A stretch of DNA of 9,840 nt from Burkholderiaceae bacterium (lineage in GTDB: Bacteria > Pseudomonadota > Gammaproteobacteria > Burkholderiales > Burkholderiaceae). This document shows positions 1 to 5,569 of this stretch, piece by piece (position 1 is the first letter of the stretch; every line of letters starts with the position of its first letter). A program made the translations under genes and the position numbers. The notes beneath the pieces were generated by a model that saw nothing but the letters and a program-made list of their open reading frames with translations, made no database searches and was not told the origin of the DNA. The DNA is taken from positions 1-9,840 of the forward strand of contig JALORV010000212.1 of the NCBI GenBank assembly GCA_025458735.1, in the 5' to 3' direction.

Positions 1-153
1 TCGTCCCAGACCTTCGGATCCTCGAGCGCAACGTTGATTTCCTGCAGCCGCGCTTCCTTCACATCGACGTCAAAGATACCTCCGCAGCTCGGCCAGGCGT
101 CCGCGCAGGTCCGCGATGGTTCCTTCGATCTGGTTGAGGCGTTCGGCTTCCAT
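1..153 (-). CDS. prfB: Peptide chain release factor 2 (5' part, programmed +1 frameshift)
   Basis: Release factor 2 reads UGA and UAA stop codons and releases the finished protein from the ribosome. Only the amino-terminal part is present; the gene continues beyond base 1. ATG at 153-151 opens 27 codons (MEAERLNQIEG...LAELRRYL) that end at an in-frame TGA at 72-70. Shifting +1 at the CTT codon continues as DVDVKEARLQEINVALEDPK and then VWD to the window edge. This matches the RF2 family pattern [20 protein letters not shown] followed by a P-x-VW motif. The zero-frame part is about the length seen in E. coli (25 codons before TGA). No strong Shine-Dalgarno sequence precedes the ATG; GGGA lies 6 bases upstream. 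RF2 autoregulates through the frameshift: low RF2 favours the shift. prfB normally follows recJ; here they are separated. Identification is firm from the frameshift site plus both flanking peptides. Confidence 0.94.
69..84 (-). promoter_or_regulatory. prfB programmed +1 ribosomal frameshift site
   Basis: The minus strand reads GGAGGTATCTTTGAC. An internal Shine-Dalgarno-like GGAGG (83-79) is followed by three bases, then the slippery CTT (75-73), the zero-frame stop TGA (72-70) and a C after the stop. This is the same architecture and spacing as the E. coli prfB site, where the internal SD pairs with 16S rRNA and the weak UGAC stop context pauses the ribosome so that it slips to the UUU frame. 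Translation then resumes at GAC (71-69). Confidence 0.93.
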
Positions 154-179
154 GATGTTCCCGACGAGGCAAAGGCGGG

Positions 180-185
180 ATTATA
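180..185 (-). promoter_or_regulatory. Candidate -10 box for prfB
   Basis: A perfect TATAAT hexamer lies on the minus strand, 26 bases upstream of the prfB ATG, giving a predicted leader of about 20 nt. No TTGACA-like -35 stands at 16-18 bp spacing (that position reads CGCGGC), so the promoter would be weak at -35 or rely on an activator. In such GC-rich DNA a perfect -10 hexamer in the only non-coding stretch upstream of prfB is unlikely to be accidental, but it is unproven. Confidence 0.55.
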
Positions 186-202
186 GGAAGCGCGCGAGCA
201 GC

Positions 203-222
203 GCCGCGGCAAAGCCGGCGGC
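203..222. other. Imperfect inverted repeat in the prfB/cyclase intergenic region
   Basis: CGGC-AAA-GCCG (207-217) forms a 4-bp stem with an AAA loop. It is extended by GCCG/CGGC (203-206 with 219-222) across one bulged base at 218. It lies just upstream of the prfB -10 box and of the candidate cyclase -10. There is no following T-tract on either strand, so it is not an intrinsic terminator. It could be an operator or chance structure in GC-rich DNA. Confidence 0.3.
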
Positions 223-230
223 CCGCCCAG

Positions 231-236
231 TAAGAT
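231..236 (+). promoter_or_regulatory. Candidate -10 box for the cyclase gene
   Basis: TAAGAT (4 of 6 matches to TATAAT) is the best -10-like hexamer on the plus strand between prfB and the repeat array. Its predicted start site near 243 would give a leader that begins at a GC hairpin (GCCGCC-GAC-GGCGGC, 246-260) and runs through the whole repeat array at 270-367. No -35 hexamer is recognisable at the right spacing. This is a weak call based on position and absence of competitors. Confidence 0.3.
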
Positions 237-269
237 GCGCGCGCCGCCGCCGACGGCGGCCCGACCGCG

Positions 270-367
270 CTGATGATCGTGCTCCGATGACCGTGCTCCG
301 ATGACCGTGCTCCAATGACCGTGCTCCGATGACCGCGCTCCGATGATCGCGCTCCGATGATCGCGTC
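270..367 (+). repeat. Seven-copy 14-bp tandem repeat, one ATG per copy, forming nested mini-ORFs
   Basis: Seven consecutive 14-bp units start at 270, 284, 298, 312, 326, 340 and 354. The consensus is CCGATGACCGTGCT; the variants are mostly C/T at unit positions 8 and 11, and the last unit ends TC. Each unit contains an ATG (273, 287, 301, 315, 329, 343, 357). The first six ATGs each open a five-codon ORF: MIVLR, MTVLR, MTVLQ, MTVLR, MTALR and MIALR. Each ends in a TGA that overlaps the next unit's ATG as ATGA. The seventh ATG (357) is the cyclase start. Because 14 is not a multiple of 3, successive ATGs rotate through all three frames. Copy number can therefore change without altering how the last mini-ORF meets the gene. 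No Shine-Dalgarno motif occurs in the unit. The repeat and the reading frames are direct observations; a regulatory role is inference. Confidence 0.9.
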
Positions 368-3011
368 GACCGCAGCAACCGTCACCTACCTGTTCTCCGA
401 CATCGAGGGCAGCACCCGGCTGTGGGAGAACGATCCAGCGCGGGCTGCGCGCAGCGTGGCCTGGCACGACGACCTCACCCGGGCAGCCGTGGGCCGGCAC
501 CGTGGCGTCGTCGTCAAGATGACCGGCGACGGCGTCCACGCCGCCTTCGACGATCCCCTGGAAGCCGTGGCAGCCGTGCTCGAGCTGCAGCTGGCGCTGG
601 CCGAGGACGATCCGGAGCGGCTGCCGCTGAAGGTCCGCTGCGGTCTGCACCTCGGCGCCGACGAGCGACGCGACAACGATTTCTTCGGTCCGGCGGTCAA
701 TCGGGCGGCCCGCATCATGGCGGCGGCCCATGGCGGCCAGGTGCTGGTGTCCGGGGCCGTCGCGCAACGGCTTCGATCGCAGCTGCCGGCCGCGACGTCA
801 CTGCGGGACCTGGGCCTGGTGCGCCTGCGCGACCTCGGCAGCGCCGAGCACCTTTACCAGCTGGTGCATCCGGGTCTACGCAGCGAGTTTCCGCCGCTGC
901 GATCGATGGCGAGCACTCCCAACAACCTGGCGCAGCAGCTCAACTCCTTCGTGGGGCGCGAACGCGAGATGGAGGAAGTCCGTCGCCTGCTGGCCAACAG
1001 CCGGTTGCTCAGCCTGCTGGGCATGGGCGGGCTCGGCAAGTCGCGGCTGTCGATGCAGGTGGCGGCCATCGTGCTCGAGGATTACCCGGACGGTGTCTGG
1101 TTCGTCGAACTGGCCGCGCTGGCTGACCCGTTGCTGGTGCCGCAGGCGACCGCCTCGGTGCTGGGGGTCAAGGAAGAGCCGGGCGGCAGCGTGACCGAGG
1201 CACTGGTGCGCTTCGTGGGCGAGCGCAAGCTGCTGATCGTGCTGGACAACTGCGAGCATCTGGTGGGCGCCTGCGCGGAACTCGCAAAGCGGCTGCTGCA
1301 GGCCGGCCCGCAGGTGCGCGTGCTGGCATCGAGCCGCGATGCCTTGCGCATTGCGGGGGAAACGGTGTTTCAGCTGGCGCCGCTGACGGCACCGCCAAGC
1401 GGCGCCGAAGTGCAGACCGAGCGGCTGCTTGCCAACGACGCGGTGCGGCTGTTTGTCGACCGCGCCACTGCGGCGCAGCCGGCGTTCCGGCTGCATCCGA
1501 GTTCGGCTGCGGCGGTGGCCGAGATCTGCCGCCGGCTGGACGGCATTCCGCTGGCGCTCGAACTGGCCGCGGCCCGCACGCGGTCGATGCCGGTCGAGAC
1601 CATCGCTGCCCGGCTTGGCGACCGCTTCAAGCTGCTCACCTCCAGCGACCGCACGGTGTTGCCGCGCCAGCAGACGCTGCGTGCGCTGATCGACTGGTCG
1701 TACGACCTGCTCGATGCCAACGAGCGCACGTTGTTCGCGCGGCTTGCGGTGTTCGCGGGCGGCTGGAACCTCGAGGCCGCCGAGGAAGTCTGCCCGGGCG
1801 GCGCGATCGGGGCCGACGCGGTGTGCGACCTGCTCGCCGGCCTGGTCGAGAAGTCGCTGGTCGTGTTCGATGCGGACCAACGGTCCTACCGGATGCTCGA
1901 CACCGTGCGGCAGTACGCCAGTGACCGCCTGGCCGAGCGTGACGATGGCGCAGACACGAGGACCCGACATCTCGCCTGGTGCCTGGCGCTGGCCGCCGCG
2001 GCAAGGGCGGGCCTGGCCGGGCCGGAACAAGGCCAGTGGCTGGAGCGGCTCGATCGCGAGCGCGAGAACCTGCTCGCGGCCCACCGCTGGTGCGACCGGG
2101 CCGACGATGGCGCCGAGCGGGGCCTGCAACTCGTGTTCCTGCTCAAGTTCTACTGGTACCAGCGCGGCCTGCTGACGCTCGGACTGCGCGTGACCGCGGA
2201 AGCGCTGGCGCGCACCCGCGCCGACCAGCGCACGCTGGCGCGCTGCCGTGGACTGGCCGACGTCGGCCAGTTCCATGTGTTCATGGGCCGCTACGCCGAG
2301 GCCCGCGGCTTCCTCGAAGAGAGCCTGGCGCTGGCGCGCGAACTCGGCGACGCCAACCGCATCGCCGCGGTGCTGCAGCCGCTCGGACAGGTCTGCCTCG
2401 GCGAAGGCGATCTCGAGGGCGCCGGGGGCTACTGGCGCGAGGCCGTCGAGAAAGCTCGTGCCGTCGGCAATCCGCGCCAGCTGGCCTCGGCCCTGAACGG
2501 GCATGCGCAACTGCTGCGGCAGCAGCACGATCTGGCCGGCGCCGAGACGCTGTGCACCGAGGCCGTTGAAATCCTCACCGGACTTGGCGACCAGGAGAGC
2601 ACGGCGATCGGCTGGCTCAATCTTGCCGCGGTCGCGGTCGAGCGCGGCCGTCTGGTCGAGGCTCGCGGTCTGCTCGACAACGTGCTGCGCGTGGCCACGT
2701 CACTCGGATCGCAGCAGCTCGGACAGTGTGCGCTGGACTTCGCCGCCGGACTCGCCGCCGCCGGCGGCGCAGCGCAGAGTGCACTGCGCTTCTTCGGCGC
2801 CGCCGAGGCACAGTCGCTGCGTTCGGGGATGCGGCGCGACAGCGCCGACGCTTCGTTCCTGCTGCCGTGGATCGAACGCGCGCGTGCTGCGCTGGGCGCG
2901 GACGCAGCACGCCGCGCCGAAGACGAGGGCGCGCGCTGGTCGTATGACGATGCGCTGCGCAGCGCCAGCATTCCGGCGCCGGCGCAGGGTGGGGGCGTCA
3001 CTCGAGATTGA
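357..3011 (+). CDS. Class III adenylate cyclase fused to STAND/AfsR-like ATPase and TPR-like region
   Basis: This predicted cytoplasmic signalling protein (884 aa) has no visible membrane segment or signal peptide. Residues 8-170 form a class III cyclase domain. D15 (FSDIEGST) and D58 (KMTGDG) are the metal ligands. K54 and D108 stand at the purine-specifying positions and favour ATP. N115 and R119 (VNRAAR) stabilise the transition state, so the enzyme looks active. From about residue 198 (FVGRERE) comes a STAND-type ATPase: Walker A GMGGLGKS (222-229), Walker B LLIVLDN (292-298, D297), a GIPLALEL motif (396-403) and a winged-helix-like segment around 440-485. The remainder is helical, TPR-like and Ala/Leu-rich. 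No LuxR or other DNA-binding HTH is visible, unlike many cyclase-ATPase relatives. ATG 357 is forced: the same frame has TGA at 330 with no start codon between, and conserved sequence begins at residue 8. It lacks a Shine-Dalgarno and overlaps a mini-ORF stop. The 3' end overlaps the opposing gene by 14 bp. The input signal is unknown. Confidence 0.92.
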   Translation: MIASTAATVTYLFSDIEGSTRLWENDPARAARSVAWHDDLTRAAVGRHRGVVVKMTGDGVHAAFDDPLEAVAAVLELQLALAEDDPERLPLKVRCGLHLGADERRDNDFFGPAVNRAARIMAAAHGGQVLVSGAVAQRLRSQLPAATSLRDLGLVRLRDLGSAEHLYQLVHPGLRSEFPPLRSMASTPNNLAQQLNSFVGREREMEEVRRLLANSRLLSLLGMGGLGKSRLSMQVAAIVLEDYPDGVWFVELAALADPLLVPQATASVLGVKEEPGGSVTEALVRFVGERKLLIVLDNCEHLVGACAELAKRLLQAGPQVRVLASSRDALRIAGETVFQLAPLTAPPSGAEVQTERLLANDAVRLFVDRATAAQPAFRLHPSSAAAVAEICRRLDGIPLALELAAARTRSMPVETIAARLGDRFKLLTSSDRTVLPRQQTLRALIDWSYDLLDANERTLFARLAVFAGGWNLEAAEEVCPGGAIGADAVCDLLAGLVEKSLVVFDADQRSYRMLDTVRQYASDRLAERDDGADTRTRHLAWCLALAAAARAGLAGPEQGQWLERLDRERENLLAAHRWCDRADDGAERGLQLVFLLKFYWYQRGLLTLGLRVTAEALARTRADQRTLARCRGLADVGQFHVFMGRYAEARGFLEESLALARELGDANRIAAVLQPLGQVCLGEGDLEGAGGYWREAVEKARAVGNPRQLASALNGHAQLLRQQHDLAGAETLCTEAVEILTGLGDQESTAIGWLNLAAVAVERGRLVEARGLLDNVLRVATSLGSQQLGQCALDFAAGLAAAGGAAQSALRFFGAAEAQSLRSGMRRDSADASFLLPWIERARAALGADAARRAEDEGARWSYDDALRSASIPAPAQGGGVTRD

Positions 3012-3405
3012 CGATGTGCGGGTCTTTCTGGACCAGTCGCTGATTCGCGTCCAGCAGCCGGATCGTGTACTTGAACCGCCCATTTTTCGAGTTGCGGTTG
3101 GTGCAGGTGAAGCGGCGGGGACCGCCACCGCAGTTGACGATCTGGTCCTGCGGCCGCAGGCTGCCGCCGGACTCCTCGCCTTCGACGACGATGCCCTGCG
3201 GGTCGAAGCGGTAGTTGGCGTCGCGCGGCAGATCCCACTGAATCACGACCGCGCCCCGGGCCCGTCTGACTTCGATCGGATCCGGCCGCGCCGTGATCGA
3301 GGTCCCGTCCAATGACACTTCGACAGGGATCGGCTGTGCGTGGGCTGCCGGTCCGGCGGCCAGTGCGGCAGCGGCCGCCAGGACCGCGAGGATGTGCTTC
3401 GTCAT
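2998..3405 (-). CDS. Small exported protein of unknown function
   Basis: This is a 135-aa protein with a clear Sec signal peptide: TKH, then an alanine/leucine core, with likely cleavage after AHA at residue 23. The mature product would be about 112 residues in the periplasm. It has two cysteines (QIVNC and RFTC) that could form a disulfide, and a conserved-looking end (GRFKYTIRL...DPHIVNLE). I do not recognise a named family. It resembles the adjacent upstream lipoprotein: both have a PxPIxVxR...VVIxWxLP segment and a KYT...DPxIVNxE terminus, so the two are probably tandem paralogues. The start is supported by GGGAG five bases upstream of ATG 3405. It sits 25 bp after the frameshifted gene, as the last gene of the leftward recJ operon. 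Its stop lies 14 bp inside the end of the opposing cyclase gene. Protein status is well supported; function is unknown. Confidence 0.82.
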   Translation of the reverse strand: MTKHILAVLAAAAALAAGPAAHAQPIPVEVSLDGTSITARPDPIEVRRARGAVVIQWDLPRDANYRFDPQGIVVEGEESGGSLRPQDQIVNCGGGPRRFTCTNRNSKNGRFKYTIRLLDANQRLVQKDPHIVNLE

Positions 3406-3430
3406 GGGCTCTCCCGCAGCGGCTTGGCTG

Positions 3431-3857
3431 CTACTCCATGTTGACGATGAAGGGATCGAGCACCAGCGGTTTGCCGCCCGAATCGGCCGTCAGCGTGTAC
3501 TTGTAGCGCGCGTGAGAGACGTAGTCGAAGCTGCAGACGAGGACCTTCCGAAGGGTGCGGGCCCGGGCGCCGGGCTTCCGGAGGGTTGGGCAGCCAGCCT
3601 GCGGCCGACCCTGCCGGCAGCGCCCAGGCGATGACCACGCGGTTGCCGGCCGCGAGGTCCCGCTTCCAGATCCGGATCGGCTCCTGGTCGATGACGAGCT
3701 GGCCGCCGACGACGAGCACGTTGGGCTCGGTCGGCCTCGGCCGGGAGACCAGCCCCGGATCGAAGCCGTCGTCATTGGGCAGGCGCGGATTCCGCTCGAA
3801 TCCAGCGCAACCGGCGAGTACCGCCGCGACGGCAAGCGCCCAGGCAATCCGCTTCAT
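3431..3857 (-). pseudogene. Lipoprotein gene with a frameshift, paralogue of the downstream exported protein
   Basis: ATG 3857 has an excellent GGAGAGG Shine-Dalgarno five bases upstream. It opens MKRIAWALAVAAVLAGC, a lipoprotein signal peptide with lipobox LAGC; C17 would be lipidated. The +2 residue is Ala rather than Asp, so Lol-dependent transport to the outer membrane is expected. The first frame stays plausible through QEPIRIWKRDL and NRVVIAWALPAG (about 3620), which match the neighbouring exported protein. The matching carboxyl end (VLVCSFDY, YKYTL, LVLDPFIVNME, TAG at 3433-3431) lies in the +1 frame, so the 427-bp gene contains one base too many or an equivalent indel between roughly 3544 and 3620. 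Read without a shift, the first frame gives an Arg/His/Leu-rich tail ending at 3402, typical of out-of-frame sequence. It could be a true pseudogene, a sequencing error or, less likely, programmed frameshifting. If intact it would be 141 aa. Function is unknown. Confidence 0.75.
3545..3586. repeat. Short direct repeat in the frameshift zone of the lipoprotein gene
   Basis: CTTCCGAAGGGT (3545-3556) and CTTCCGGAGGGT (3575-3586) match at 11 of 12 bases and are 30 bp apart. They flank a very GC-rich stretch containing GGGCCCGGGCGCCGGG. They lie inside the window where the reading frame of the lipoprotein gene changes, so slippage or misassembly here is a plausible source of the indel. Confidence 0.5.
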
Positions 3858-3880
3858 TGCATCCTCTCCGTCGTGCGCCG

Positions 3881-5569
3881 TCATCCGGCGTCGCAGGCCT
3901 CGATCTTCAGGGTCAGCTTCCGCTTGCCCTGGTATTCGTCGACGAGATGCGCCTGCCGCGGCAGCGGGTCGAGACGGCCGAAGAATATGGCATCGAACGG
4001 GCGACCGTCCAGTTCGAGCCGCAGTTTCAGGTGGCGGTCCTTGACGAGGCGCTGCTCGAGCACCATGAATTCGTTGGCATACACGGGCGCCGGAAAGCCC
4101 TGGCCCCAGACGTGCTCGTCGCAGGCTTCGATCAGCGAGGCAACGATCTCGCCGGGGGCGAGCGGGCCGTCGGTGGCCAGCGTGCGCTCGAACAGCGCGC
4201 GGTCGCAGCTGGCGCGCGTGGCGTCTTCGAAGGCGCGCACAAAGCCTTCGTAGTGCTCGATGCCGAGCGTCAGTCCGGCGGCCATGGCATGTCCGCCATA
4301 GCGACGCACGAGGTCCGGGGCGCGCTTGGTCACCAGGTCGAGCGTGTCACGCAGGTGCACGCCTTCGATCGAGCGGCCGGAGCCGCGCAGTTCCGACTCG
4401 CCGCTGCGGGCGAACGCGATGGTCGGGCGATGGAAGCGTTCCTTGACGCGCGAGGCCACCAGCCCGACGACGCCCGGATGCCAGTGCTCGTCGTACAGGC
4501 AGATGGTGCGGCTGCGCTCGACCGTGGCGGCATCGAGGGTGGCCAGCGCGTCCAGCTGCATGCCACCTTCGATCTCGCGCCGCTCGCGATTGAGCGCGTC
4601 GAGCTGCTCGGCAAGCTCGAGCGCGTGCTCGTAGCTGTCGGTCGCCAGGCATTCGATGCCGACCGTCATGTCCGTCAGCCGTCCGGCCGCGTTGATGCGG
4701 GGGCCGATGGCGAAGCCCAGATCGGCGGCGCGCGCCATACGGGCCTCGCGCCGCGCCACCTGGAAGAGCGCCGCAATGCCCGCGTGCAACCGGCCGCTGC
4801 GGATGCGCTGCAGGCCCTGGGCGACCAGCACGCGGTTGTTGCGATCGAGCCGCACGACGTCGGCCACCGTGCCCAGCGCCACCAGGTCGAGCAGGGCATC
4901 GAGCCGCGGCTGGGTCGCTGCATCGAAGCGGCCCCGCGCCCGCAGTTCGGCGCGCAGCGCCAGCAGCACGTAGAACATCACGCCGACGCCCGCCAGATGC
5001 TTGCTCGGGAAGCCACAGCCCGGCTGGTTCGGGTTGACGATGCAGGCCGCTGCCGGCAGCACGGCGCCCGGCAGGTGGTGGTCGGTCACCAGCACCTCGA
5101 TGCCCAGCTCGGCGGCGCGCGCCACTCCCTCCACGCTGGCAATGCCGTTATCGACCGTGATCAGCAGGTCGGGCGTGCGCCCGGCGGCGAGGTCGACGAT
5201 TTCGGGCGTCAGGCCGTAGCCGTACTCGAAGCGGTTGGGCACGAGGTAATCGATGCTCGCCTGCGTGCCGGCGGCAAGCAGGCGCAGTCCGCGCAGGCCC
5301 ACCGCACAGGCGGTGGCACCGTCGCAGTCGTAGTCGGCCACGATCAGCAGCCGCGCCTCGGCCTCGATGGCATCGGCCAGCAGCGACGCCGCCGCGTCGA
5401 TGTGCGACAGCGCCTGCGGAGGAGCTAGACCATCGAGCCCAAGCTCGAGTTCGCGCACGTCGCTGACGCCGCGTGCCGCCAGGGCGCGAGCGAGTGCGGA
5501 GGGCAGGCCGGCATCGGCCAGCCGCCGCGCCGCGGCTGGATCGAAGTCGCGCGCGATCAGTCGTGTCAC
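3881..5569 (-). CDS. recJ: Single-stranded-DNA-specific 5'-3' exonuclease RecJ
   Basis: RecJ degrades single-stranded DNA 5' to 3' in the cytoplasm and serves RecF-pathway recombination, mismatch repair and base-excision repair. The 562-aa length fits the family (577 in E. coli). DHH-superfamily motifs appear in order: VADYDCDGAT (77-86, metal-binding D79, D81, D83), TVDNG (138-142, D140), TDHHLPG (162-168), GTVADVV, then RINAAGRL. The DHHA1 part carries SGRSIEGVHLRDTLD and RRYGGHAMAAG, which includes the conserved GGH. GTG 5569 is chosen because it overlaps the TGA of the RpfE-type gene (GTGA), has GGAG two bases upstream and gives the normal family length. The in-frame ATG at 5686 would add 39 unrelated residues inside the upstream gene. 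A lipoprotein gene follows after 23 bp, so cotranscription of the four minus-strand genes is likely. prfB, its usual neighbour, lies about 3.7 kb further on. Confidence 0.97.
   Translation of the reverse strand: MTRLIARDFDPAAARRLADAGLPSALARALAARGVSDVRELELGLDGLAPPQALSHIDAAASLLADAIEAEARLLIVADYDCDGATACAVGLRGLRLLAAGTQASIDYLVPNRFEYGYGLTPEIVDLAAGRTPDLLITVDNGIASVEGVARAAELGIEVLVTDHHLPGAVLPAAACIVNPNQPGCGFPSKHLAGVGVMFYVLLALRAELRARGRFDAATQPRLDALLDLVALGTVADVVRLDRNNRVLVAQGLQRIRSGRLHAGIAALFQVARREARMARAADLGFAIGPRINAAGRLTDMTVGIECLATDSYEHALELAEQLDALNRERREIEGGMQLDALATLDAATVERSRTICLYDEHWHPGVVGLVASRVKERFHRPTIAFARSGESELRGSGRSIEGVHLRDTLDLVTKRAPDLVRRYGGHAMAAGLTLGIEHYEGFVRAFEDATRASCDRALFERTLATDGPLAPGEIVASLIEACDEHVWGQGFPAPVYANEFMVLEQRLVKDRHLKLRLELDGRPFDAIFFGRLDPLPRQAHLVDEYQGKRKLTLKIEACDAG

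Follow-up and report, generated by a model that had tools for sequence, protein, structure and literature searches.

In the window analysed here (the whole 9,840 bp stretch of contig JALORV010000212.1 from a Burkholderiaceae bacterium), the start codon of a class III adenylate cyclase gene is preceded by an array of six five-codon mini-ORFs (273..360, + strand; sequence, tandem repeats finder (TRF) and frame listing), in which each TGA stop overlaps the following ATG. We give an even chance to the reading that this array is a termination-reinitiation relay or funnel, duplicated from the cyclase's own start, which lacks a Shine-Dalgarno (SD) sequence, and situated in the leader of the gene. Related arrays in other genomes bear on this reading: there, tandem copies of ATGA lead into genes more often than tandem copies of ATGC, ATGG or ATGT (ATGB) among the matches listed.

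TRF reported a tandem repeat at 272-360 (+ strand) with a period of 14 bp, 6.4 copies, 93% matches and a score of 143, with the units as nearly identical as those of variable number tandem repeats (VNTRs). ATGA is present in all seven 14-bp copies (273, 287, 301, 315, 329, 343 and 357). Mini-ORFs 1-6 (273-290, 287-304, 301-318, 315-332, 329-346 and 343-360, + strand) encode the peptides MIVLR, MTVLR, MTVLQ, MTVLR, MTALR and MIALR in this order, and the stop/start overlap of the -4 ATGA type is found at 6/6 links. Both the sequence and TRF therefore confirm the seven ATG-bearing repeats and six linked mini-ORFs of the preliminary description. A degenerate, shorter copy of the unit, GACCGCGCTG, which has no ATG, can be read at about 263..272 (+ strand) and may belong to the array. 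In 20,000 base shuffles of positions 151-360, the longest chain of ATGA at 14-bp spacing had two members, compared with seven in the window. The near-identity of the copies suggests that the array is young.

That every stop meets the next start, as had been stressed at the outset, is true of the array but is an arithmetic consequence that does not on its own point to design: the geometry is forced because the unit length of 14 equals 2 modulo 3 and the unit contains one ATGA and no other stop. A unit of 1 modulo 3 would skip one copy, and a multiple of 3 would give an in-frame fusion. Since the relay geometry is arithmetic, the case for a relay must rest on other evidence. The same geometry follows, from ATGA and a 14-bp unit, if slippage simply duplicated 14 bp at the start, the mini-ORFs are a by-product, and initiation occurs de novo at ATG357 without any effect of the array. 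Such neutral expansion is possible, although we lean towards doubting it.

The gene that the array enters (357..3011, + strand) encodes a protein of 884 aa identified as a class III adenylate cyclase/STAND-type ATPase with TPR repeats from homologue N-termini, Pfam accessions and homologue source names; its relatives carry the names predicted ATPase or class 3 adenylate cyclase. The beginning of the gene, ATGATCG, is repeat copy seven. All 11 homologues whose N-termini were read begin with MI[EA]STA..VTYLF, so position 357 is the right start and Met-Ile (NTGAT) is native to the gene, which establishes that the ATG of the seventh copy is the cyclase start, as first described. A protein cluster (P0002, 99% identical, 8 members) was found for the cyclase, and its identity to relatives at the loci found is 35-62%, with a best value of 60% in the family of genome G001 (67 genomes). 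When 250 genomes of the order were searched with the cyclase at E <= 1e-180, the already known G001 was the only one to match. Four ATGA at 14-bp spacing occur in none of the fetched loci L001-L111, so that the suggested search for such repeats ahead of other cyclase-STAND genes turned up no second array at these loci.

The syntenic orthologue (L006/L085, genome G001) has prfB and the cyclase gene in the same divergent arrangement as the window, without the array. In the window, the 5' end of the divergent gene occupies 1..153 (- strand); we take this gene to be prfB (release factor 2, RF2) from its RF2 features, presumably including the classic programmed frameshift context of the in-frame TGA in AGGTATCTTTGAC (81-69, after 27 codons). 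A perfect TATAAT of prfB (185-180, - strand) lies between prfB and the array. The same arrangement of prfB start, in-frame TGA and TATAAT is also seen in L006.

On the cyclase side, a -10-like hexamer, TAAGAT (231..236, + strand), precedes ATG273 by 42 nt and ATG357 by 126 nt. For comparison, 13 leaders with a clear start codon were hand-picked from 32 orthologue leaders, and in 11 of the 13 a -10-like hexamer (TAACAT, TAAAGT and similar) is positioned 34-47 nt ahead of the start codon. The chance of such a hexamer, estimated by shuffling, is 0.01-0.19 per leader, with a sum of about 1. In the window, a -10-like hexamer at this spacing fits ATG273 and is absent at that distance from ATG357. 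This test is not independent: the motif had been spotted by eye in those very leaders before they were counted, and the orthologues, two of which are near-duplicates, are related to one another. A sigma-70 consensus scan of window positions 1-800 gave no full match. Folding predicts a stable hairpin with a 7-bp stem (243..260, + strand), which would form the 5' end of the leader ahead of the first mini-ORF, with the transcript probably starting near 243. Read most simply, these spacings mean that the start originally lay approximately at the present copy 1 and that six added copies moved the gene by 84 nt, still within the transcript; the array is thus probably transcribed and grown from the gene's own start. 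The earlier alternative of a neutral repeat expanded over a pre-existing start codon holds for the origin of the array: the repeated unit derives from the start region of the gene, no array is present in the syntenic orthologue, and the promoter spacing suggests the 84-nt displacement. The first two of these points, together with the apparent youth of the copies, also favour neutral expansion as a full account of the array.

The position between divergent genes brings in a further explanation, in which the tandem 14-bp units are an iteron-like DNA element bound by a regulator that controls the cyclase or prfB. The palindrome CGATGATCG in copies 6-7 would suit such an element, but it is not kept in copies 2-5. 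Iteron and operator arrays have repeats at or upstream of the promoter that are conserved with the target; here, the repeats come after the cyclase's inferred -10, towards the start codon and about 87 bp past the prfB TATAAT, and are missing from the syntenic orthologue. The array does not match this class in either respect, and we regard binding at the DNA level as highly improbable.

How, then, could ribosomes enter the array? The statement that no SD sequence is present proved correct for the six ATGs from 287 to 357, for which pairing with the anti-SD CCUCCU gives +0.3 to +0.7 kcal/mol, compared with a mean of -2.5 for shuffled sequences of the same composition. For ATG273, the pairing is -4.1 kcal/mol via GGCGG, a stretch that falls inside the predicted hairpin at 243-260. 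The lack of an SD at ATG357 counts against de novo initiation there, as neutral expansion would have it. The missing SD is not peculiar to the array, since the starts of orthologues L085, L082 and L104 are also SD-less by eye; several others have GGAG-type sites. These values also bear on an opposite effect of the array, in which nearly all initiation would occur at ATG273, each poor hop would lose ribosomes and more copies would mean stronger repression of the cyclase, with output falling as r^6 for a hop probability r. ATG273 is alone among the array starts in having anti-SD pairing and in keeping the ancestral leader, its spacing from the -10-like hexamer is close to the ancestral one, and reinitiation is often SD-assisted and gene-specific according to PMC6728339. 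The location of the pairing stretch in the predicted hairpin speaks against such repression, as does the near-identical context of copies 2-7, at which de novo starts should be alike. We consider repression of this kind improbable.

Under the relay reading, the SD-less start region would have been tandemly duplicated between the promoter and the gene, inside the transcribed leader, and every added copy would bring its own overlapping stop because the native start reads ATGA. A ribosome starting on any copy would make five residues and stop at UGA; termination-reinitiation at the 4-nt overlap would place it on the next AUG, and this would be repeated until the cyclase start, so that ribosomes from upstream starts would be handed on rather than lost. 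If all copies had an equal start rate a and a hop probability r, the output would be a(1+r+...+r^6), which saturates with copy number at a ceiling of 1/(1-r)-fold over a single start. For seven copies versus one, this model gives a 1.43-fold (r = 0.3), 1.98-fold (r = 0.5) or 3.95-fold (r = 0.8) output, and at r = 0.5, a ribosome from ATG273 would arrive at the gene 1.6% of the time. What the sequences show is the array itself, the promoter-like spacing, its absence from the syntenic orthologue and the preference of such arrays for ATGA starts; transcription of the array, ribosome passage and a net effect on the gene are what we infer from them. Instead of having been selected for tuning, the relay may do no more than allow the expansion to be tolerated.

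Termination-reinitiation coupling at ATGA/TGATG overlaps, as described in PMC6728339 and PMC10666635, involves the same 4-nt stop/start overlap as the window array, and several related arrays likewise sit between two reading frames. In the window, by contrast, the overlap is multiplied six times, each upstream "gene" consists of just five codons derived by copying the start region, and the stretch ahead of the array yielded no + strand gene. The relay would thus amount to such coupling, multiplied by slippage. According to PMC10666635, coupling needs only 15 nt of the upstream gene, and reinitiation in E. coli is nearly abolished at +38 nt; on these figures, expanded junctions would become uncoupled if there were no hops in between, and mini-ORFs could keep them coupled. 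Removal of the SD lowered reinitiation in 4/5 E. coli gene pairs in Huber 2019 (PMC6728339), and the hops of the window array have no SD, which counts against the relay.

Two further classes invite comparison. Leader peptides and upstream-ORF attenuators share with the array the presence of short ORFs in a gene leader; this candidate was set aside, there being no conserved peptide, no Rfam match at the gathering score and no array in the syntenic orthologue. VNTRs and phase-variable repeats in promoters and leaders have similar near-identical short units that could slip, but in contrast to on/off switches, the unit length and ATGA would leave ribosomes a path to the gene however many copies there are, so that any effect would be graded. 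A literature search, with subscription papers mostly outside its scope, turned up nothing on tandem ATGA start/stop arrays among the titles and abstract openings of the matches listed.

To see whether ribosomes read such arrays, we searched 399 genomes from the order to which G001 belongs for four ATGA at 14-bp spacing, and 22 of them matched. The matches gave 26 distinct arrays, including two further listed ones; exclusion of six heptamer arrays left 20. Three of the excluded heptamer arrays reach genes (L122, Y1_Tnp; L127, MurB; L130, SCO1, just below its cut-off). L131, whose array has the same letters as that of L130, and two 7-bp ATGA arrays (G140 C1, second place, and G358 C78) were also left out. 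A gene start was counted when the ORF opened by the last ATG had at least 80 aa and contained a Pfam domain; ORF length alone was dropped, since long ORFs arise by chance in GC-rich DNA. By this rule, 11 of the 20 arrays run from their last ATG into a Pfam-confirmed gene, the genes being MbnB-type, GT87, ZIP, ABC permease, sigma-70, LpxB, multicopper oxidase, ABC ATPase, nucleotidyltransferase, DnaA/Hda and DctM. The strict next-copy relay is absent in two of the eleven (L113 and L124).

As a control, the census was repeated in the 399 genomes with ATGB, which matched 59/399 genomes, many of them via 7-bp repeats or non-repeat matches. From 48 ATGB arrays, five heptamer arrays and 16 with a unit identity below 0.6 were removed, leaving 27. 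L408 and L414 proved to be ATGA read from the other strand, L448, L451 and L453 were both-strand matches counted once, and L460 was added, giving a total of at least 23; those fetched were the real-looking repeats among the matches listed, plus G210 and three more genomes. Only one of the 23 reaches a Pfam-confirmed gene among the matches listed (L447, YceG), and this array is itself partly relay-capable because TTGA is present in three of its four copies. In ATGB arrays L434, L440, L442 and L445, TGATG or TAATG provides a 1-nt stop/start overlap, so that these too could relay, although none leads into a Pfam-confirmed gene.

The difference between 11/20 ATGA and 1/23 ATGB gene-start arrays (the latter among the matches listed) has a Fisher p of 2.6e-4. 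With three doubtful arrays admitted in a lenient count (L449, with an IspD domain from residue 91, and L451 and L453, whose real start is apparently further in), the figures are 12/20 vs 3/23 (ATGB among the matches listed; p = 0.0016), and for strict next-copy relays only, they are 9/20 vs 1/23 (ATGB again among the matches listed; p = 0.002). When the Pfam domain was required to start at most 60 aa from the last copy, the contrast shrank to 8/20 vs 2/23 among the matches listed (p = 0.02; L115 and L126 by judgement). The best stretch alone under the same rule, the narrowest comparison, gave six ATGA against two ATGB arrays (6/20 vs 2/23, ATGB among the matches listed; p = 0.08). Of the 126 annotated genes of Cupriavidus pHG1, 114 start with ATG, 49 with ATGA (43%) and 65 with ATGB; hence, if duplication were blind to translation, as neutral expansion predicts, gene starts should carry ATGB arrays roughly as frequently as ATGA arrays, whereas 1 and 11, respectively, were found (ATGB among the matches listed). 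Against the 43% expectation, the ATGA gene-start arrays give a binomial p of 7e-4. This bias suggests that duplicated starts are visible to ribosomes and survive mainly when each has its own overlapping stop. It fits mere tolerance of the array as well as use of the relay and does not separate the two.

Other periods were also considered. ATGA arrays of 17 bp matched in 9/399 genomes and those of 13 bp in 7/399. Period 17 gave Pfam-confirmed gene starts in 3/10 arrays (FtsB of the DivIC family, acetyl-CoA synthetase and GpsA), or 2/8 at a unit identity of 0.6 (L387 has 0.59). Period 13, which would allow a next-but-one relay, gave a gene start in 1/7 arrays (L143), in addition to the doubtful L148 with a TctC domain from residue 122; the difference between periods 14 and 13 is a weak trend that is not significant (p = 0.07). 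Read backwards, the pattern matched 11, 5 and 1 of the 399 genomes at periods 14, 13 and 17, respectively. In viral contigs, an ORF of 100 aa is opened in only 8 of the 144 period-14 arrays among the matches listed and in 6 of 105 period-13 arrays; this scarcity counts against the relay, as do the period-13 arrays that reach a gene.

Of the 19 gene-start arrays examined, 11 contain or adjoin the end of a long upstream frame (186-479 aa, judged by length alone), such as L116 (375 aa), L126 (352 aa) and L382 (427 aa); the last frame, before ftsB, is presumably enolase, judging from its C-terminal end and position. Arrays with an upstream frame ending inside them are apparently expanded operon overlaps, and such frames, together with the ATGA bias, suggest that the copies are read by ribosomes. 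The relay mechanism put forward in the preliminary description thereby gains indirect support from the 11/20 vs 1/23 comparison (among the matches listed) and the 11/19 upstream frames, but none from the geometry.

Among the 399 genomes, tandem ATGA units of 14 or 17 bp recur in expanded form ahead of genes or at the junction of two: L382 (1501-1552), L118, L392, L116, L126, L136 and L387 are examples, and the genes that follow are ftsB, lpxB, gpsA, a permease gene, a DnaA/Hda-like gene, dctM and an acetyl-CoA synthetase gene. Upstream of the listed copies in L117 and L136, copies of 12 or 15 bp stand beside 14-bp ones; as multiples of 3, they fuse mini-ORFs and the chain stays open.

If the relay works, slippage alone can create chains of coupled mini-cistrons and alter their length, which would tie the instability of repeats to translational coupling and offer a natural series for measuring per-hop reinitiation efficiency. 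A working relay would also account for which duplications of a start codon persist, and it would warn gene finders that several close ATGs may feed one start. A broader proposal, which we regard as unlikely, is that betaproteobacteria repeatedly make a translational device of their own by ATGA tandem expansion, in which slippage would add or remove five-codon stations in leaders and at junctions of adjacent genes (before ftsB, lpxB, gpsA and the cyclase) with graded control at any copy number. Under the same proposal, cyclase output could follow RF2 through the six UGA stops; RF2 activity could matter in this way because the relay would pass six UGA codons, which RF2 reads, and prfB is the divergent neighbour.

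At the other end of the gene, two small secreted proteins, one of them lipoprotein-like, are encoded on the - strand at 3402-3884 and about 3020-3400 and converge on the cyclase. The frame at 3402-3884 appears broken, with its C-terminal end likely in another frame. Relatives of the lipoprotein adjoin the cyclase in L001, L006, L007 and L090 of the 16 loci searched (L090 weakly, E = 0.001), and similar proteins are seen by eye beside the cyclase in L103 and L104, which suggests that the secreted lipoprotein-like neighbour is a conserved partner of the cyclase.
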